From the IMG/VR virus record IMGVR_UViG_3300036804_000077, positions 1-21,967 of that record: DNA of 21,967 nt. One strand, 5' to 3'. The position numbers were made by a program, and so were the translations under genes. Shown in pieces: positions 7,419 through 12,669 of this stretch. How positions within the stretch are numbered: position 1 is the stretch's first letter; each line of letters begins with the position of its first letter. The DNA is from a virus. The notes beneath the pieces are model-generated. The model was given only the letters and a program-made list of their open reading frames with translations, was not told the origin of the DNA and made no database searches.

Positions 7419-7867
7419 TCTTCTTCTTCCTTATCCTGTTTCACAATACTTGCTACCAGCTTGGCTCGTGATGATGGAGATAATCCTAAATCACTCCCCA
7501 TTGCTCGCACTTGTTTAGCTGCCTTATCCATAGCTCCATATGCATTACCTGGCTTACCATCTGTTTCCAATTCCTTCTTAACGTATTTTCGTAACTCAAC
7601 ATACTGTTGTAATGCATCACAGTACATGGCCAATGCATTCGAATCTGTGTTAGACAATATTTCAGAACTGGATAAGTCTTTCTTAAGAGTATTGAATACT
7701 CGGCGAGCCATGGACCCTACTTCCAACCATTCAGGCGCGTCTATATTAGTAGCATCACCACGTAACTTATCTTCTAGTTCACTTTGTTCTTTTAGCCTCT
7801 GCGTATTCCTATGATTGGGATTACCACCTACAAGTTGCAACTTGGCAGGCAAATCTTTTTGTCCCAT
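7409..7867 (-). CDS. terS: Terminase small subunit, P27 family
   Basis: The 152-residue protein binds the packaging start site on phage DNA and hands it to the large subunit. The N-terminal LQLVGGNPNHRNTQRLKEQ is the P27 family signature (usually GNPGKR), followed by a helical domain with PEWLEVGSMARRVFNTL and DSNALAMYCDALQQYVELRKYV, and the C-terminal MGSDLGLSPSSRAKLV, which is the family's LGLTPSSRARL block. The end is acidic (KEEEEWN). A strong AGGAGGTG ribosome site precedes the ATG. The stop codon is inside the start of terL. Confidence 0.93.
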   Translation of the reverse strand: MGQKDLPAKLQLVGGNPNHRNTQRLKEQSELEDKLRGDATNIDAPEWLEVGSMARRVFNTLKKDLSSSEILSNTDSNALAMYCDALQQYVELRKYVKKELETDGKPGNAYGAMDKAAKQVRAMGSDLGLSPSSRAKLVASIVKQDKEEEEWN

Positions 7868-8098
7868 AGTGCCCCACCTCCTCTCAAAAAGTCGAAATAA
7901 ATAGAAAAAAACCTACTTTTTTCTGAAAAAAATAGGCCTTTTTTTAAGATGTAAAAAACAATAAAACAGCTATGTATCAGGCTTTAAAAGGCCTTATCCA
8001 CTCCAAAATACCAAAAAACTGAAAAGCGGGTTTTTTTAAAAAGAAGGAGGGCTCCGGTACGCAAGCACATTTAAATCTCAAAAAAATTATAGGGGGGG
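7868..8098 (-). other. Gap between terS and HNH gene; possible cos region
   Basis: This 231-base gap has no convincing gene. It is mostly A/T runs, with one GC-rich island around 8044-8066 (GGAGGGCTCCGGTACGCAAGC) flanked by poly-A/T tracts and a G7 run at 8092-8098. In phages with an HNH gene next to the terminase, the cos site is usually close to these genes, so this island is the most likely place for it. That is inference; I see no cos sequence I recognise. Confidence 0.35.
7904..7945. terminator. A/T-rich hairpin terminator between HNH and terS, possibly bidirectional
   Basis: The arms CCTAC plus T6 (7912-7922) and A6 plus TAGG (7926-7936) form a stem with one mismatch and a 3-base loop. 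It is followed on the minus strand by a run of seven U residues (7911-7905) and on the plus strand by a run of seven T (7939-7945). It lies inside the late operon, so it would attenuate terminase expression unless antitermination occurs. Confidence 0.5.
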
Positions 8099-8386
8099 TT
8101 AAAATTTCACAACATCATCTCGCACAAGTTTCTTTTTGCTCCCCATTTTTTCTGGATGCGCCTTATTGTGGTGCTCTCTGCAAATCGTCTCAAGATTATC
8201 CAACTCATAAAATAACGTGACATCATCTCGAGCATGTTGTTTATGATGTACTGTATCTCCTTGTTTATAAACAGATCTAGACAGACACACTTGGCACAAA
8301 CCTTTGTCTCTTTCTAAAGCCATTCGTCTAATTCTTTCCCAGCTTTTCGTATGATACAACCGATCAATGTCATCACGTCTAGGCAT
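8099..8386 (-). CDS. HNH endonuclease of the packaging module
   Basis: The 95-residue protein is an HNH nuclease of the type encoded beside P27-type terminases. Such proteins are needed with the terminase for cutting cos ends in some Firmicute phages. Visible are the first zinc pair C31-x2-C34 (LCQVCL), the HH of DTVHHKQ (47-48) as the first catalytic His, N64 in LDNLETI, and the C69/H72-H73 part of CREHHNKAH with the last His at 77. The start at 8386 is preferred over upstream in-frame ATG codons, because AAAGGAG lies 5 bases before it and the upstream part is a terminator and repeat array. Confidence 0.92.
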   Translation of the reverse strand: MPRRDDIDRLYHTKSWERIRRMALERDKGLCQVCLSRSVYKQGDTVHHKQHARDDVTLFYELDNLETICREHHNKAHPEKMGSKKKLVRDDVVKF

Positions 8387-8408
8387 AGCTACTCCTTTCT
8401 TTTTACAC

Positions 8409-8441
8409 AAAAAAAGAGCAACGAAATTAATCGCTACTCTT
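8409..8441 (-). terminator. Rho-independent terminator just upstream of HNH gene
   Basis: On the minus strand an 11-bp stem (arms 8441-8431 and 8424-8414, two G-U pairs) closes a 6-base loop and is followed by a U run (8413-8409). It lies only 23 bases before the HNH start codon. It should stop transcripts coming from the accessory region and, if the late promoter lies upstream of it, also late transcripts, unless they are made termination-resistant. Confidence 0.75.
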
Positions 8442-8481
8442 AAATAGTCTCTATTACTCTTCATTACTATCTACTACTCTT
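8435..8481. repeat. Three TACTCTT sites with exact 20-base spacing
   Basis: TACTCTT occurs at 8435-8441, 8455-8461 and 8475-8481, so the sites lie on one face of the helix, two turns apart. The outer two copies extend to CTACTCTTAAATA (8434-8446 and 8474-8486). They lie just upstream of the packaging genes, where a late activator should bind. The leftmost copy is also one arm of the terminator. The ArpU-like protein encoded at 12716-13120 is the natural candidate to bind here; that link is inference. Confidence 0.6.
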
Positions 8482-8486
8482 AAATA

Positions 8487-8656
8487 AACCTGTGCGTATG
8501 CACTCCTTCGCTTACCTAATTATCGAACAATATCATAATAACCCGATTACCCCGTCTTACGGTTGAACATTTGCCGAATGTTACCCGAACGTTTTAATGT
8601 AATTTGAAAATAATCAAACGCGTCATCCACCAAGTTTAATATTATAATCAATTAAG
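8487..8656. other. Non-coding stretch upstream of late region
   Basis: No gene is supported. It holds a near-palindrome GTGCGTATGCAC (8492-8503) and an inverted repeat AACATT-TGCCG-AATGTT (8566-8582), followed by a related GAACGTT. These could be operator sites, but nothing identifies a binding protein. Confidence 0.4.
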
Positions 8657-8685
8657 TTGTAAATATACATTTAGTGGTCCATACT
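8657..8685 (+). promoter_or_regulatory. Plus-strand promoter 1 (TTGTAA-N17-CATACT)
   Basis: TTGTAA at 8657-8662 and CATACT at 8680-8685 are separated by exactly 17 bases. The expected start is near 8692, which is the first base of a 10-bp inverted repeat. The same two boxes with the same spacing recur at 9473-9501 and 9991-10019, while the spacers differ in sequence. Confidence 0.6.
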
Positions 8686-8691
8686 GAGCAT

Positions 8692-8799
8692 AGAACAGAA
8701 AACTCAATCTTTATATCTAACGTATAATGTTGAACTCCTTAAACCCATTTCTGTTCTCTCAGAGCCTTTTGATGATACCATCTAAGGCTCTTTGTTTTT
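8692..8799 (+). ncRNA. Candidate small RNA 1 with long-range stem and terminator
   Basis: The predicted RNA begins with AGAACAGAAA (8692-8701), which pairs perfectly with TTTCTGTTCT (8748-8757). The enclosed 46-base loop holds ACTCCTTAAA, whose CTCCTT (8735-8740) copies the anti-Shine-Dalgarno end of 16S rRNA. Directly after the stem comes a terminator: AGAGCCTT (8761-8768) pairs with AAGGCTCT (8784-8791), then TTTGTTTTT. There is no open reading frame of note. It is on the strand opposite to the phage genes and its 3' end faces the 3' end of the ADP-ribosyltransferase-like gene, so read-through of that gene would be antisense to it. The function is unknown; pairing with ribosome sites is an inference from the CTCCTT loop. 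Confidence 0.5.
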
Positions 8800-8825
8800 A
8801 CGTAATAATTTTTTGATTGCCATTT

Positions 8826-9269
8826 CTATCTGTTAATATATTTTCGTTTGAATGCGCCATAAGATATTACCTCGACCACATCATTTCGACTTAAAGGAGC
8901 TACTACTTCGTGTTCATCGTATTTGGAAAAGACATCTGATATATCTACCGCTTTAACGGAAGAAAGAACTATTACATTCCCTACAAGCCCTTTCTGTTTA
9001 AAATAAGAACTCACGATAACAGTTGGATCATTTGTAAATGACACCCAATGATTATCAAACTCTATTTCAGCTAAATCGTTCTGATGCACACGGTATAATG
9101 TTGTTCCTTGTTCGACATAAGCTGAACTCCAACCGTAAATATTATCTTGTGTTAGATGATATAACTGTTCCCAATAAAAATCTGTCTCTCTGAGATTTTT
9201 TCTTCTTTTTCTACCTATCGGATGTTCTCGCCATAACATTATTAATGCCAGAAACTCATTGATCGCCAT
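8826..9269 (-). CDS. ADP-ribosyltransferase-like accessory protein
   Basis: The 147-residue product has the motif order of the R-S-E class of mono-ADP-ribosyltransferases: LYRVHQ with Arg60, WVSFTND with Ser77 and Thr79 (in place of the usual S-T-S), SSYF in the following helix, and DEHEVVAPL with Glu119-x-Glu121, like the EEEVLLP-type catalytic turn. The first 50 residues are helical and basic (GRKRRKNLRETD) and show no known domain. If active, it would transfer ADP-ribose from NAD+ to a target in the cytoplasm. It is a single gene in the accessory region, with a weak ribosome site (AAAGAGAT) and no clear minus-strand terminator. The assignment rests on motifs only; the S-T-S block is imperfect, so loss of activity is possible. 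Confidence 0.55.
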   Translation of the reverse strand: MAINEFLALIMLWREHPIGRKRRKNLRETDFYWEQLYHLTQDNIYGWSSAYVEQGTTLYRVHQNDLAEIEFDNHWVSFTNDPTVIVSSYFKQKGLVGNVIVLSSVKAVDISDVFSKYDEHEVVAPLSRNDVVEVISYGAFKRKYINR

Positions 9270-9283
9270 GTATATCTCTTTTC

Positions 9284-9298
9284 GATGTTCTAAACATC
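9284..9298. promoter_or_regulatory. Palindrome upstream of ADP-ribosyltransferase-like gene
   Basis: GATGTT-CTA-AACATC is a perfect 6+6 palindrome ending 15 bases before the start codon at 9269. It could be an operator controlling this gene or a small hairpin near the ribosome site. A second palindrome, ATACCT-A-AGGTAT, lies about 40 bases further upstream near 9336-9348. Confidence 0.35.
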
Positions 9299-9472
9299 AT
9301 TCAATCGCTACATTTTTAGCTACATCATCACTATATACCTAAGGTATTACAATTTAGAATCATCTAGATAACAATAACAATCAATACTTCAAACTAAGAA
9401 AAAATATTCTCCCAAAACGCTAATCTAGCAATGTTCACATCCTTTCTAGCATCTATCACTAGGAATCGTTCA
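9299..9472. other. Non-coding stretch upstream of ADP-ribosyltransferase-like gene
   Basis: AT-rich, with no gene on either strand. It probably holds the minus-strand promoter of the gene at 8826-9269; TATATA/TATAGT sequences near 9323-9330 could be a -10 box, but no good -35 box stands at the right distance. Confidence 0.35.
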
Positions 9473-9501
9473 TTGTAATGTTAGCCAATAAAGTACATAC
9501 T
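9473..9501 (+). promoter_or_regulatory. Plus-strand promoter 2 (TTGTAA-N17-CATACT)
   Basis: TTGTAA at 9473-9478 and CATACT at 9496-9501, spacing 17. The expected start is near 9508, one base before a long hairpin begins. The boxes are identical to those at 8657 and 9991. Confidence 0.6.
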
Positions 9502-9507
9502 GCAGTT

Positions 9508-9701
9508 AGGGCATTGGTTGGTTTCCCGCTTTAATCGGTAACGCGTTACCAGCCAATGGCCACGGTCCTTTGTAAGATCAAATTAGAGTGCTAATAACCA
9601 CCCTATTCTTGTTAATGTGTCGTATAAATAAACATGCGATAGAACACACGCTCGTTTGCAGCTCTCGCCATTAACAGATTGTTCTTACATTGGACCTTTT
9701 T
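9508..9701 (+). ncRNA. Candidate small RNA 2, highly structured
   Basis: The predicted RNA of about 190 nt opens with a hairpin whose arms are 9509-9521 and 9549-9561 (about 12 pairs with one wobble and one bulge). Inside it is a perfect 14-base palindrome GGTAACGCGTTACC (9537-9550), which competes for the same bases, so two folds are possible. Then GGTCCTTTGTAAG (9564-9576) pairs at 11 of 13 positions with CTTACATTGGACC (9684-9696), followed by five T residues, giving a terminator with a long enclosed domain. The left arm holds TCCTTT, again like the anti-Shine-Dalgarno sequence. No protein is encoded. It lacks the short separate terminator hairpin of RNAs 1 and 3. Confidence 0.45.
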
Positions 9702-9863
9702 ACATGCTCTTACATCATATAGTTTCAATAGTTATTATGGTGTAAGATGTGCCGATAACAGAGCCCATTCTATATTTCTGTAAGTACACACTTTATTTGT
9801 CTGCTATATTAAATTACATTATTTCTGTCCCATCATGAATGGATTCTGTTATCTATCGATTTA
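9702..9863. other. Non-coding stretch between candidate RNAs
   Basis: No gene, promoter of the TTGTAA/CATACT type or clear repeat is seen. TTGTCT at 9798-9803 followed by AT-rich DNA might be a weak promoter for the next hairpin element, but the -10 box is poor. Confidence 0.3.
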
Positions 9864-9966
9864 CCCCAAAACACACTTGCGTTTAATTATTAGGTCATAA
9901 AAGTAATTTCCACGATTATTTACTTCACCTTATAATTTTACTCAAATATTGTTTTGGGGCTTTTTT
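9864..9966 (+). ncRNA. Candidate small RNA 3' end: long-range stem plus T-run
   Basis: CCCCAAAACA (9864-9873) pairs perfectly with TGTTTTGGGG (9950-9959), followed by C and six T residues. The 76-base loop holds a nested hairpin (AAGTAA 9901-9906 with TTACTT 9920-9925) and then CACCTT just before the right arm. The layout, outer stem, inner hairpin, pyrimidine segment, then terminator, resembles the candidate RNAs on either side, but I cannot find the shared promoter in front of it. It may be a terminator with a large loop or the end of a longer RNA. Confidence 0.4.
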
Positions 9967-9990
9967 ATTGGCTACTCATGTAAGCTATGC

Positions 9991-10019
9991 TTGTAATTCA
10001 GTAAACATAAGCACATACT
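9991..10019 (+). promoter_or_regulatory. Plus-strand promoter 3 (TTGTAA-N17-CATACT)
   Basis: TTGTAA at 9991-9996 and CATACT at 10014-10019, spacing 17. The expected start is near 10026, two bases before a 15-bp inverted repeat begins. The boxes are identical to those at 8657 and 9473. Confidence 0.65.
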
Positions 10020-10025
10020 CGACAA

Positions 10026-10167
10026 TACAAGGAGCGAAAGAATCATAATACATGTATAGTACGGTGGCAGTATTTCTTACCTCATTCAGAGGTACTCCTT
10101 TAATTTTCTTTCGTTCCTTGGGAGCTCTGGATAACTATGTGCGTGACATATAGGTCAGGGCTTTTTG
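10026..10167 (+). ncRNA. Candidate small RNA 4 with 15-bp outer stem and terminator
   Basis: The RNA begins with the arm at 10028-10042 (CAAGGAGCGAAAGAA), which pairs with 10106-10120 over 15 bases with one G-U pair. Within the loop is a small hairpin, TACCTC (10078-10083) with GAGGTA (10089-10094), followed directly by CTCCTTT (10095-10101), matching the anti-Shine-Dalgarno sequence. After the outer stem comes a terminator hairpin, AGCTCTGG (10123-10130) with TCAGGGCT (10155-10162), then TTTTT. Architecture and motif order match candidate RNA 1. Its terminator is convergent with that of the guanidinium exporter gene. No protein is encoded. The function is unknown. Confidence 0.55.
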
Positions 10168-10182
10168 TATGTATAAAAAATT

Positions 10183-10211
10183 AAAAAAGCACTCGAAGTT
10201 AATCGAGTGCT
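10183..10211 (-). terminator. Terminator of the guanidinium exporter gene
   Basis: A perfect 9-bp stem, AGCACTCGA (10188-10196) with TCGAGTGCT (10203-10211), closes a 6-base loop; on the minus strand it is followed by a U run. It lies 22 bases after the stop codon. Confidence 0.85.
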
Positions 10212-10232
10212 CTTCAATAATCTTAACGTCGT

Positions 10233-10550
10233 TTAATGTGATGTCATTTTAATTCCGACAATTCCAATAGCAAGCAATGCAACGAATAACCATGTAATTC
10301 CATTAATCTTGTCCTGAAACAAAAATAATCCTACGAATATTGATCCAATTACACCAATTCCAGTCCATATTGGATACGCCACACTTAACTGAATATTCTT
10401 TAATGCTAGTGACAAAAACCCGAAACTTACAATCATTCCGAAAATCGTAACAATGCTCCATGTCATATTAGAAAAGCCATGACTCAACTTCAACGTTGTG
10501 GCCCACACTACTTCAAATACTCCTGCTACCAATAAATACAACCATGCCAT
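10233..10550 (-). CDS. gdx: Guanidinium exporter, SMR family (Gdx/SugE type)
   Basis: The 105-residue protein is a small multidrug resistance family transporter with four membrane helices. The N-terminal MAWLYLLVAGVFEVVWATTLK carries the essential Glu13 and Trp16 in the pattern of the Gdx/SugE branch, and WTGIGVIGSIFVGLFLF and the ending IVGIKMTSH are also Gdx-like rather than EmrE-like. Such proteins act as antiparallel dimers that exchange guanidinium for protons. The gene stands alone with its own leader, promoter and terminator. A strong AGGAGG site lies 9 bases before the ATG. A guanidine-type riboswitch candidate upstream supports the substrate. It is not needed for phage growth and is best seen as cargo. 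Confidence 0.9.
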   Translation of the reverse strand: MAWLYLLVAGVFEVVWATTLKLSHGFSNMTWSIVTIFGMIVSFGFLSLALKNIQLSVAYPIWTGIGVIGSIFVGLFLFQDKINGITWLFVALLAIGIVGIKMTSH

Positions 10551-10571
10551 AATAAAATCCTCCTAAAAAAC

Positions 10572-10656
10572 AAAAAAATAGGCGTACCCACTTCTTCTAA
10601 TGACCTGCTGAAGTGAACACCCTATTTGGTGAAAATATGTTCCCGGTAGAACGTTT
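10572..10656 (-). promoter_or_regulatory. Guanidine riboswitch candidate (guanidine-IV/mepA type) with overlapping terminator
   Basis: On the minus strand a first hairpin GTTC-TACCGG-GAAC (10652-10639) is followed by a CACC/GGGTG segment and then a long two-part stem: CCTATTT/AAATAGG outer (10621-10627 with 10576-10582) and CACTTC/GAAGTG inner (10610-10615 with 10589-10594), ending in a U7 run. The loop UACC of the first hairpin can pair with GGUA (10585-10588) next to the 3' side of the terminator stem. That fits an ON switch in which the bound form prevents termination. The order and the GGGUACGCC segment match my memory of the guanidine-IV class, and the downstream gene is a guanidinium exporter. 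Class assignment is from recall. Confidence 0.65.
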
Positions 10657-10669
10657 AAATTGTATTTAT

Positions 10670-10678
10670 ATCCTAGCA
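10670..10678 (-). promoter_or_regulatory. Extended -10 promoter for exporter leader
   Basis: TGCTAGGAT on the minus strand fits an extended -10 element; no good -35 box is seen. The expected start, near 10663, is just upstream of the first riboswitch hairpin. Confidence 0.45.
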
Positions 10679-10724
10679 CACCATTCTAATTATTGCTATA
10701 TCCCATAACCAAAACTTTTACATA

Positions 10725-10865
10725 AATAAAAAAGCACCCAACTTATAATTGGATGCCTTCTTCTCAGTACTAGGGATACTGAGCGTGTGATTATGCTACA
10801 TTACTTGTTTCTCCCAAAAAACACGTAAACATATATCCCAACTTTTAACATACAAAAGTAGGATA
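10725..10865 (-). ncRNA. Candidate short minus-strand RNA (about 140 nt)
   Basis: A good promoter (GTGACA at 10899-10894, 16 bases, TATAAT at 10877-10872) predicts a start near 10865. A terminator follows at 10756-10734 (GCATCCAA with TTGGGTGC, one G-U pair) with a U run. Just before it is a perfect hairpin CTCAGTA/TACTGAG (10763-10769 with 10777-10783). The transcript could encode a 16-residue peptide starting at 10851 (MLKVGIYVYVFFGRNK), but no ribosome site precedes it. It is a stand-alone unit between the SecB-like cassette and the exporter leader. It could be a regulatory RNA, a type I toxin-like unit or an attenuated leader; I do not recognise it. Confidence 0.5.
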
Positions 10866-10907
10866 ACCACAATTATACAGTATTTTTTAAATTTGTCACA
10901 GAAAACT

Positions 10908-10956
10908 AAAAAACCGTGAATTATCAACTTTTTTAGTCGGTAACTCACGGTTTTTT
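10908..10956. terminator. Bidirectional terminator after the SecB-like cassette
   Basis: A perfect 12-base inverted repeat, AAAAAACCGTGA (10908-10919) with TCACGGTTTTTT (10945-10956), ends directly at the stop codon of the SecB-like gene. Runs of A and T on both sides let it work on either strand. Confidence 0.8.
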
Positions 10957-11367
10957 CTAGTTTTCGTCATTAATTTCGATTGTCATTTTTTCACGCAATC
11001 TTTCTTCAGTTAGAAGATGAATTGGTAACAAAACAGGAGGATAACTATCCATTGGCATAGATGTCAATGATGCAACTGCCATTTGAATTAATGGTAGCAA
11101 TTGATATGCTGCGCTGACACTATTTTTATCCGTAATTTTTTCACTAAAAGTAGCCATCATGGTTATATCAAAACCTATAGGAACACCTTCAGAATCCTGA
11201 GATACCTTAAGTTCAACTAATTGCGTATCAGAATCTCGGGCTTTCATAGCTGTCATTGCGAATAAAGGATTTAAGTAGATTTCTTTATTGTCCGTCTCAA
11301 CGTCAAAAGAATAATTTTTTCTATAAACAATCTCGTCTAGCCAAACACGTTCTATTCTTAAAACCAT
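10957..11367 (-). CDS. SecB-like chaperone, third gene of accessory cassette
   Basis: The 136-residue protein follows the layout of SecB: an N-terminal strand LRIERVWLDEIVYRKNYSFD (SecB has FQIQRIYTKDISFE), NPLFAMTAMKARDSDTQLVELKVSQ and GFDITMMATFSEKI as the paired strands, then YQLLPLIQMAVASLTSM as the long helix, followed by YPPVLLPIHL, which parallels FPQLNLAPVNF of SecB. SecB-fold proteins bind unfolded clients. Most Gram-positive bacteria lack SecB export, and SecB-like proteins in such genomes often belong to toxin-antitoxin-chaperone units. The gene overlaps the preceding gene by 10 bases, with GGAGAT before its ATG, so the two are coupled. The fold call is by eye on pattern similarity. 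Confidence 0.65.
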   Translation of the reverse strand: MVLRIERVWLDEIVYRKNYSFDVETDNKEIYLNPLFAMTAMKARDSDTQLVELKVSQDSEGVPIGFDITMMATFSEKITDKNSVSAAYQLLPLIQMAVASLTSMPMDSYPPVLLPIHLLTEERLREKMTIEINDEN

Positions 11368-11981
11368 ATTTTATTATCTCCCATACCAGCAAGCGACAAT
11401 TCTTTCACTTCTGTATTTTTAACTCCGCGTGTTGAATAAAACTTACCTGCTTGTGTTTTAGGCACCACGCTTTTTCGTTTTGCAGCCCATAGACGGGCTA
11501 TTTTTTTAATAAAATTTTGTTCTTTATTTTGGCCATACGTAAACTCTACTGATCTAGTTGTTGCAGCTGTACCTAATGAGTCGAATGTAACGTTAATGAT
11601 TGGAGCCACATAGCCACTCTCATCCGAAGTCACTTTTCTAAGTGTATCTGCCTTAACCTCCAACTGAATGTCCTTAATCATACGGCCCAGTTGGGAAATT
11701 TCTTCATATTGACTTTCTTCATTATGTGAAATGAAAAAGTTTTTATATTCATTGTCATGTTGGTCTAACCATTTCAATAGCCTGAGAACCTTGTACTTCT
11801 CGCTATCAAAGAATCCAGAACTCAACAATACAACCGAATTTTCAAATTCATGAGGGCATCCTTGCAATGAATATTTTTCAATCACTCCTAATTGTAAAAC
11901 TGTACCTCGATTTTGTAACACATCAGTATCATAGTCAGATAGATAGTTAAATTTATTTCTAAAAGCAATTGCATTTTCCAT
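11358..11981 (-). CDS. Unknown protein, second gene of SecB-like cassette
   Basis: I do not recognise this 207-residue protein. The start at 11981 (MENAIAF) has GAGGTG eight bases upstream; an ATG at 11999 lacks a site. The N-terminal half is mixed strand and helix with SVVLLSSGFFDSEKYKVLRLLKWLDQH; the middle has an amphipathic helix (ISQLGRMIKDIQLEVKADTLRKV) and strands (YVAPIINVTFDSLG). The C-terminal part is basic (FIKKIARLWAAKRKSVVPKTQAGKF) with many Lys and Arg, as in nucleic-acid-binding or toxin proteins. There is no signal peptide or membrane segment. In gene order it takes the middle place of a possible toxin-antitoxin-chaperone unit; whether it is toxin, antitoxin or neither cannot be told. 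Confidence 0.7.
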   Translation of the reverse strand: MENAIAFRNKFNYLSDYDTDVLQNRGTVLQLGVIEKYSLQGCPHEFENSVVLLSSGFFDSEKYKVLRLLKWLDQHDNEYKNFFISHNEESQYEEISQLGRMIKDIQLEVKADTLRKVTSDESGYVAPIINVTFDSLGTAATTRSVEFTYGQNKEQNFIKKIARLWAAKRKSVVPKTQAGKFYSTRGVKNTEVKELSLAGMGDNKIWF

Positions 11982-12001
11982 ATCTCTAACACCTCTCATT
12001 C

Positions 12002-12577
12002 CTAATATTTAATTTCTTCGTTGAGATATTTAAACATTGGCTCTTTATTACGCCATAATGTTGAAACACCAAAAAATTCAGCTCTTATATCAGCAACATT
12101 ATCAATTTTTCTATCAGTATCCTGATTTTTATCCCCTTGAAAACTACTTGACTTGTAGTTTTCTGAATCTGCAATGTAGATTCCCTTATTAAACTCTTGA
12201 AGTGAGTCTAACAAAAAGAAGAAAGCTCGTACAGCGCTAGAAACATTAGGATCATCTGGAGTTGTTCGTAACTCGTAAATATTTCCATTACGATTCATTT
12301 TCTTAACATATCGAACAGCCACCGGACCCACGCCATCCAAAAGGAATGTAGCATCTTTGCCATCTCCGACTGGGAGTGTTTTCAAAATTAATAGAGGCAG
12401 TCTAGACATTTGTTGTAATACTTTCTGCAACATAATTTTATCGGTTTTCCCCAAACCTTTCAAAGTCAATAAAGACGTAATCGGCAAACAACTTGTTACA
12501 CTTACAGGATCCAACATATGAGAACTTTCTACAGCGGAAGGAAGTATATTTGGAATTTGATACATGCTATTTTTCAC
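12002..12577 (-). CDS. Unknown protein, first gene of SecB-like cassette
   Basis: I do not recognise this 191-residue protein. The likely start is a GTG at 12577, ten bases after GGGAG; a GTG at 12598 and an ATG at 12565 are alternatives. The first 60 residues are hydrophobic and polar with LPITSLLTLKGLGKTDKIMLQKVLQQM, then come strands (LPLLILKTLPV, ATFLLDGVGPVAVRYVKKM, NIYELRTTPDD) that suggest an alpha/beta domain, then a helix AVRAFFFLLDSLQEF and an acidic, Asn-rich end. No transmembrane signal is certain. It is the promoter-proximal gene of a cassette with its own promoter, 20 bases before the second gene. Confidence 0.7.
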   Translation of the reverse strand: MKNSMYQIPNILPSAVESSHMLDPVSVTSCLPITSLLTLKGLGKTDKIMLQKVLQQMSRLPLLILKTLPVGDGKDATFLLDGVGPVAVRYVKKMNRNGNIYELRTTPDDPNVSSAVRAFFFLLDSLQEFNKGIYIADSENYKSSSFQGDKNQDTDRKIDNVADIRAEFFGVSTLWRNKEPMFKYLNEEIKY

Positions 12578-12669
12578 TGTTATACATCTCCCGCCCACAT
12601 ATTTGATGTCATCAAGACATAAAAATCCACTTCATATGAATAACTTATTATTGTCAATGCTTAATTAAA

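Follow-up and report, generated by a model that had tools for sequence, protein, structure and literature searches.

The earlier note on this virus DNA pointed to three promoters with identical boxes, lying on the other strand from the phage genes. This raises the question of what such promoters would transcribe, how they came to be there, and what would read them. We asked this of the window, by which we mean the whole 21,967-nucleotide stretch that was analyzed (IMG/VR record IMGVR_UViG_3300036804_000077).

Identical promoter-like boxes and the candidate RNA units behind them

The motif TTGTAA-N17-CATACT was found at the three positions claimed for it, each time as an exact match on the plus strand, opposite to the phage genes, with a 17-nt spacer:

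8657-8685, plus strand: promoter-like boxes P1, TTGTAA-N17-CATACT (exact motif search)
9473-9501, plus strand: promoter-like boxes P2, TTGTAA-N17-CATACT (exact motif search)
9991-10019, plus strand: promoter-like boxes P3, TTGTAA-N17-CATACT (exact motif search)

There was no fourth copy with zero or one mismatch in the whole window, and there was one copy with two mismatches, at 2235. When positions 8465-10232 were shuffled with dinucleotides preserved, any 6-N16..18-6 dyad with three copies arose in 1 of 300 shuffles. As the earlier note had proposed, we also counted the motif in host genomes, using exact boxes only, two candidate host groups, and the reversed pattern as the control. There were approximately 96 matches in 106 Enterococcaceae genomes (~330 Mb) and 9 in 28 genomes (~52 Mb) from the genus of the nearest ArpU carrier. 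The rate in these 134 candidate-host genomes, ~0.2 to 0.3 per Mb, is that of chance and is comparable to or below the reversed-pattern control. The number of copies expected in 1.36 kb is ~4e-4, and three were observed. Therefore, the three copies are not background, and the exact motif is far above chance at this locus.

With predicted starts placed 7 nt after the second box (8692, 9508, and 10026), stems of 10, 13, and 15 pairs begin at 8692, 9509, and 10028. This bears out the claim that each start falls within two bases of a long inverted repeat. Across the window, 6.5% of positions have a stem of at least 10 pairs starting within 5 nt, and 2.1% have one of at least 13 pairs. In each copy, the boxes end 7 to 9 nt before the strong stem and a terminator-like hairpin comes after it. 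The units, with a further one that was not among the original three, are as follows:

8692-8799, plus strand: RNA1 (fold z -4.9; paralogy with RNA3)
9508-9701, plus strand: RNA2 (fold z -5.0)
9754-9966, plus strand: RNA4, beyond the original three (inverted repeat; fold z -5.2)
10028-10166, plus strand: RNA3 (fold z -4.3; paralogy with RNA1)

In RNA1, a closing stem (8692-8701/8748-8757) encloses an inner hairpin and an unpaired segment, ACUCCUUAAACCCA, at 8734-8747, and is followed by a terminator at 8761-8791 plus TTGTTTTT. RNA3 has a closing stem (10028-10042/10106-10120), a hairpin at 10078-10094, the unpaired CUCCUUUAAUU at 10095-10105, and a terminator at 10121-10164. RNA2 consists of a 5' hairpin (9509-9561) and a large domain closed by GGUCC at 9564-9568 and GGACC at 9692-9696, with TTTTT behind it. 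Its 5' hairpin holds a perfect 14-base palindrome, GGTAACGCGTTACC, at 9537-9550, which might serve in a loop-loop contact or as a site for a protein. RNA4 has the two-part build of the other units, with a closing stem (9754-9770/9837-9853) and then CCCCAAAACA...TGTTTTGGGGC plus a T-run, and the boxes are absent from it. Transcription may reach it from RNA2 or may begin at a different kind of promoter. The sole promoter-like candidate that we found for it was a weak sigma-A-like one at 9709-9738, and a strong inverted repeat between RNA2 and RNA4 (9703-9750) overlaps this candidate.

In every unit, a T-run follows the terminator hairpin on the plus side, and the opposite side lacks a corresponding A-run. 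Therefore, the terminators are one-directional. At the sequence level, three units have both their own promoter-like boxes and a terminator hairpin with a T-run tail. Their folds are stable (z -4.3 to -5.0), and RNA1 and RNA3 have an accessible pairing region, an unpaired CUCCUU. We infer that the units are transcribed. A coding role was also considered, and rejected. There is a 33-codon open reading frame (ORF) inside RNA3 and a 30-codon one across the RNA1 terminator, and by eye their frames differ relative to the segment that the two RNAs share, with no conserved peptide.

RNA1 and RNA3 appear to be related. A plain MAFFT sequence alignment, made with no structural information, brought 18 base pairs of both folds into register, ten of them in the outer part of the 5' stem and eight in the terminator. 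Five of these pairs have changed on both sides (compensatory changes), four have changed on one side, and none is broken. The pairing values were equalled in 19 of 500 shuffles of the 3' letters, and the local similarity was equalled in 22 of 500 shuffles. A segment just before the 3' arm, ACUCCUU(A/U)AA, is kept and is largely unpaired in both RNAs. RNA2 and RNA4 had no similarity to RNA1 and RNA3 above that of shuffles. The case for RNA1 and RNA3 as paralogues, with covariation from two sequences, is good but not overwhelming; it is less strong than that for the motif, the folds, the direction of the terminators, and the insertion described below, all of which were computed directly. The earlier note had argued that the spacers differ and that only the boxes are kept. 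The spacers do differ, being alike at just 4, 4, and 6 of 17 bases, which is background. However, the boxes are not all that is kept: stem pairing, ACUCCUU(A/U)AA, and the position of the terminator are also preserved between RNA1 and RNA3.

The covariation rests on two paralogues because searches of phages, plasmids, viral contigs, and 398 Lactobacillales genomes turned up no homologue for any of the RNAs. When the area was searched with blastn in phages, plasmids, and two genome sets, no relative of the RNAs appeared, and the best short matches were a transporter-gene terminator and pieces of the ORF. Exact and structured RNA patterns had only chance matches in viral contigs. Against Rfam, nothing in the window scored above the gathering cutoff, and three weak matches fell short of threshold. 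A covariance model of RNA1 and RNA3, which recovers both by construction, had two other matches that we rejected. One, in the 398 genomes (L248), is weak and AT-rich with broken terminator pairs (32.8 bits, bias 8.0), and the other, on a plasmid (L089), scored 22 bits.

An insertion between arpU and the packaging genes

The area was compared with the equivalent region of three related phages or prophages, as the earlier note had suggested. One is a viral contig whose ArpU is 92% identical (L217), and the other two are prophage loci of one genome with 88 to 89% identical ArpU (L230 and L231). None of them has the area. The equivalents of window positions 8511-8595 and 10179-10211 lie 4 to 9 nt apart in all three, and the alignment reveals a clean empty site from which precisely 8596-10178 is missing. 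Therefore, 8596-10178 is an inserted cassette of ~1.58 kb, and its content is exactly the RNA units and one ORF:

8596-10178, no strand assigned: inserted cassette with all RNA units and the ORF (absent in three related phages/prophages)
8826-9269, minus strand: 147-amino-acid ORF between RNA1 and RNA2 (protein homologues)
8512-8595, minus strand: conserved block beside the insertion, probable late promoter (comparison with relatives; role deduced from PMC13123087)

The area had been described as gene free. This is incorrect, because the ORF at 8826-9269 has protein homologues. They are 25 to 37% identical and come from Enterococcus, Lactococcus, and Niallia plasmids, viral contigs, and genomes. 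R60, S77, E119, and E121 are invariant in six homologues, and we tentatively describe the product as ADP-ribosyltransferase-like from this R-S-E pattern (R60, S77, E119/E121). The ORF had no match in Pfam, PADLOC, or PDB, and its structure model (pLDDT 47.5) was too weak to confirm the fold. The exact motif was not found near the plasmid and genome homologues of the ORF. A terminator scan around the homologues was too loose to use.

In one relative, the slot just after arpU (L231:10020-12161, minus strand) holds a type II restriction enzyme and a D12-class DNA methyltransferase. Therefore, the stretch between arpU and terS is a locus that takes cargo, including defense genes. In the window, three minus-strand ORFs at 10957-12598 lie between arpU and a hairpin at 10908-10956, and none had a Pfam, PHROG, or PADLOC match above threshold. 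The same hairpin directly follows arpU in L217 and L230, and 10957-12598 looks like another cargo block. A small multidrug resistance (SMR) transporter gene of the phage adjoins the cassette (10233-10550, minus strand). Next to the 147-amino-acid ORF is the HNH gene, for which the longest ORF is 8099-8464 (minus strand). An ATG at 8386 is preceded by an AAAGGAG ribosome-binding site, and the gene probably starts there rather than at 8464.

The inverted repeats might instead be features of the DNA, such as packaging, replication, or protein-binding sites, with an accidental look of promoters. The packaging genes are close by, and sites of this kind do occur in such places. However, related phages with this control region lack the block, and it is a different stretch, near 8013-8058 between the HNH gene and terS, that is shared with relatives. 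That stretch is weakly common (76%) to three TerL relatives and is perhaps a packaging site. Because of that stretch, and of the absence of the cassette in relatives, we rejected the cassette as a cos or packaging site. One-sided T-runs also speak against DNA features, as does the fold of RNA3, which is 13.5 kcal/mol better on the plus strand than on the minus strand. We consider this explanation very unlikely.

Candidate readers of the boxes

Neither box is the sigma-70 consensus, as had been noted, yet jointly they match the sigma-A consensus at 8 of 12 positions, and the 17-bp spacer is optimal. The most important sigma-A positions are the first three bases of the -35 box and the second and last bases of the -10 box, and all of these are kept. 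Because of this 8 of 12 match, the key positions, and the spacer, the simplest reader is the host main sigma factor, sigma-A, which would act on co-inherited promoters. There is a counterpoint. All 12 box positions are identical in the three promoters, several of them non-consensus, and this exceeds the needs of sigma-A. Duplication of the units could explain this, as could an additional factor.

The earlier note had proposed a co-regulated set of small RNAs, perhaps read by ArpU or by a host alternative factor. The idea of a set of RNAs fares well: like promoters go together with the fitting placement of the stems, the one-sided terminators, and the paralogy of RNA1 and RNA3. Neither proposed reader is supported. 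A host alternative factor finds no backing in the 134 candidate-host genomes, where the exact motif is not clearly enriched. As for ArpU, the late control region has no similar boxes, its best minus-strand match having 4 mismatches, and it has phased repeats in a different block.

That block, at 8512-8595, has three imperfect repeats phased by 11 bp, AACGTTCGG / AACATTCGG / AATGTTCAA, and bears no resemblance to the TTGTAA and CATACT boxes. In the three relatives, as in the window, it is a conserved feature of the stretch between arpU and terS. Because the repeats are phased by 11 bp and conserved in all four phages, the block is likely the ArpU site. Direct repeats upstream of a sigma-A-type late promoter are the reported binding sites of regulators in the Ltr/Alt/RinA class (PMC13123087). 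The ArpU-like gene of the window matches PHROG 248, a transcriptional activator, and this match and its position suggest that ArpU belongs with that class. The likeness to Ltr, Alt, and RinA late promoters (PMC13123087) lies in an ArpU-like gene and a phased-repeat block before the packaging genes, but it concerns the minus-strand block at 8512-8595 and not the three plus-strand promoters.

These findings bear on the possibility that the three promoters form the dedicated regulon of a phage factor, ArpU or an unseen one, by which the RNAs would be switched on jointly at one phage stage. The 12 identical positions, several of them outside the sigma-A consensus, would fit such a regulon, and ArpU has a weak match to sigma region 4. 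However, regulators of the ArpU class are reported to recognize phased repeats that lie upstream of a late promoter of the sigma-A type (PMC13123087), and 8512-8595 is a conserved block of just this kind. The late control region lacks similar boxes, and the motif was absent, at zero or one mismatch, from the stretches read of relatives with 88 to 92% identical ArpU. A dedicated regulon is therefore unlikely in our view.

Proposed mode of action and comparison with known systems

The explanation that we favor, and hold to be probable, is a moron-like cassette of tandem small RNAs (sRNAs) that have their own promoters and terminators, are read by sigma-A, and act as base-pairing riboregulators. 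The cassette would have inserted between the late regulator ArpU and the packaging genes, bringing at least three separately started sRNAs (RNA1, RNA2, and RNA3), probably RNA4, and one opposed protein gene. Each RNA would be served by a promoter and an intrinsic terminator of its own, with a 5' stem that begins right at the start site. RNA1 and RNA3 would descend from one duplicated promoter-RNA-terminator unit, in which everything drifted except the pairing, the exposed ACUCCUU, and the promoter boxes. The RNAs would most likely act by base pairing: the exposed CUCCUU could cover Shine-Dalgarno sequences, and in RNA1 it could instead cover part of the mRNA of the cassette ORF.

Eight pairs were tried within the window as a first look at targets. 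The unpaired segment of RNA1 is predicted to pair with the mRNA of ORF 8826-9269 at -19.4 kcal/mol (2 of 300 shuffles were as good), and RNA3 with the HNH ribosome-binding site at -16.2 kcal/mol (27 of 300 as good). Both pairings are leads, and weak ones after correction for the number of pairs tried.

Another reading is that the cassette is an RNA-controlled toxin-antitoxin or defense module whose 147-amino-acid, ADP-ribosyltransferase-like effector is silenced by one or more of the RNAs. The ORF and the RNAs arrived in a single inserted block, the predicted pairing of the unpaired RNA1 segment with the ORF mRNA beats 298 of 300 shuffles, the ORF has an R-S-E-like pattern, and a relative has a restriction-modification pair at this locus. 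However, homologues of the ORF occur on plasmids and genomes with no exact motif nearby, and neither a profile nor a structure supports the enzyme assignment. In type III systems, the antitoxin RNA is built of short tandem repeats. The cassette resembles type III systems in having a structured RNA beside a protein gene on a mobile element, but it differs in lacking such repeats (a search of 7800-11000 found no tandem repeat array), in its opposed strands, and in having no match to a known toxin family. We regard this reading as improbable. A bolder version, in which a paralogous sRNA family both silences the enzyme-like effector of its own cassette and blocks translation of phage or host mRNAs, would make a toxin or defense module unlike known toxin-antitoxin types. 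It is decidedly improbable.

We return to the tandem sRNA cassette. Such sets are little described for phages that infect lactic acid bacteria and related bacteria. Provided that it is transcribed, the locus would represent a self-contained multi-sRNA cassette that a phage gained as cargo at its late-control junction, with promoters that stayed identical while the RNAs diverged, and it would show how an sRNA family duplicates and specializes on phages. The boxes are a precise handle for reporter tests.

SprD, an sRNA of approximately 140 nt from a Staphylococcus aureus prophage, has folded ends and an accessible middle that covers the Shine-Dalgarno sequence of its target mRNA (PMC2880579). 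RNA1 and RNA3 likewise have folded ends, and their exposed CUCCUU resembles the pairing part of SprD. This is a likeness of layout, with predicted targets, and the locus differs in having several units with identical promoter boxes in one cassette. The phage-derived sRNAs OOP, DicF, VpdS, and sar are short and often base-pair with mRNAs (reviewed in PMC12197685), but they are mostly single RNAs from phages of Gram-negative bacteria, whereas here there is a tandem set with two apparent paralogues in a Gram-positive-type phage. The cassette thus adds a new case, unusual in its layout, to the sRNAs that phages carry.
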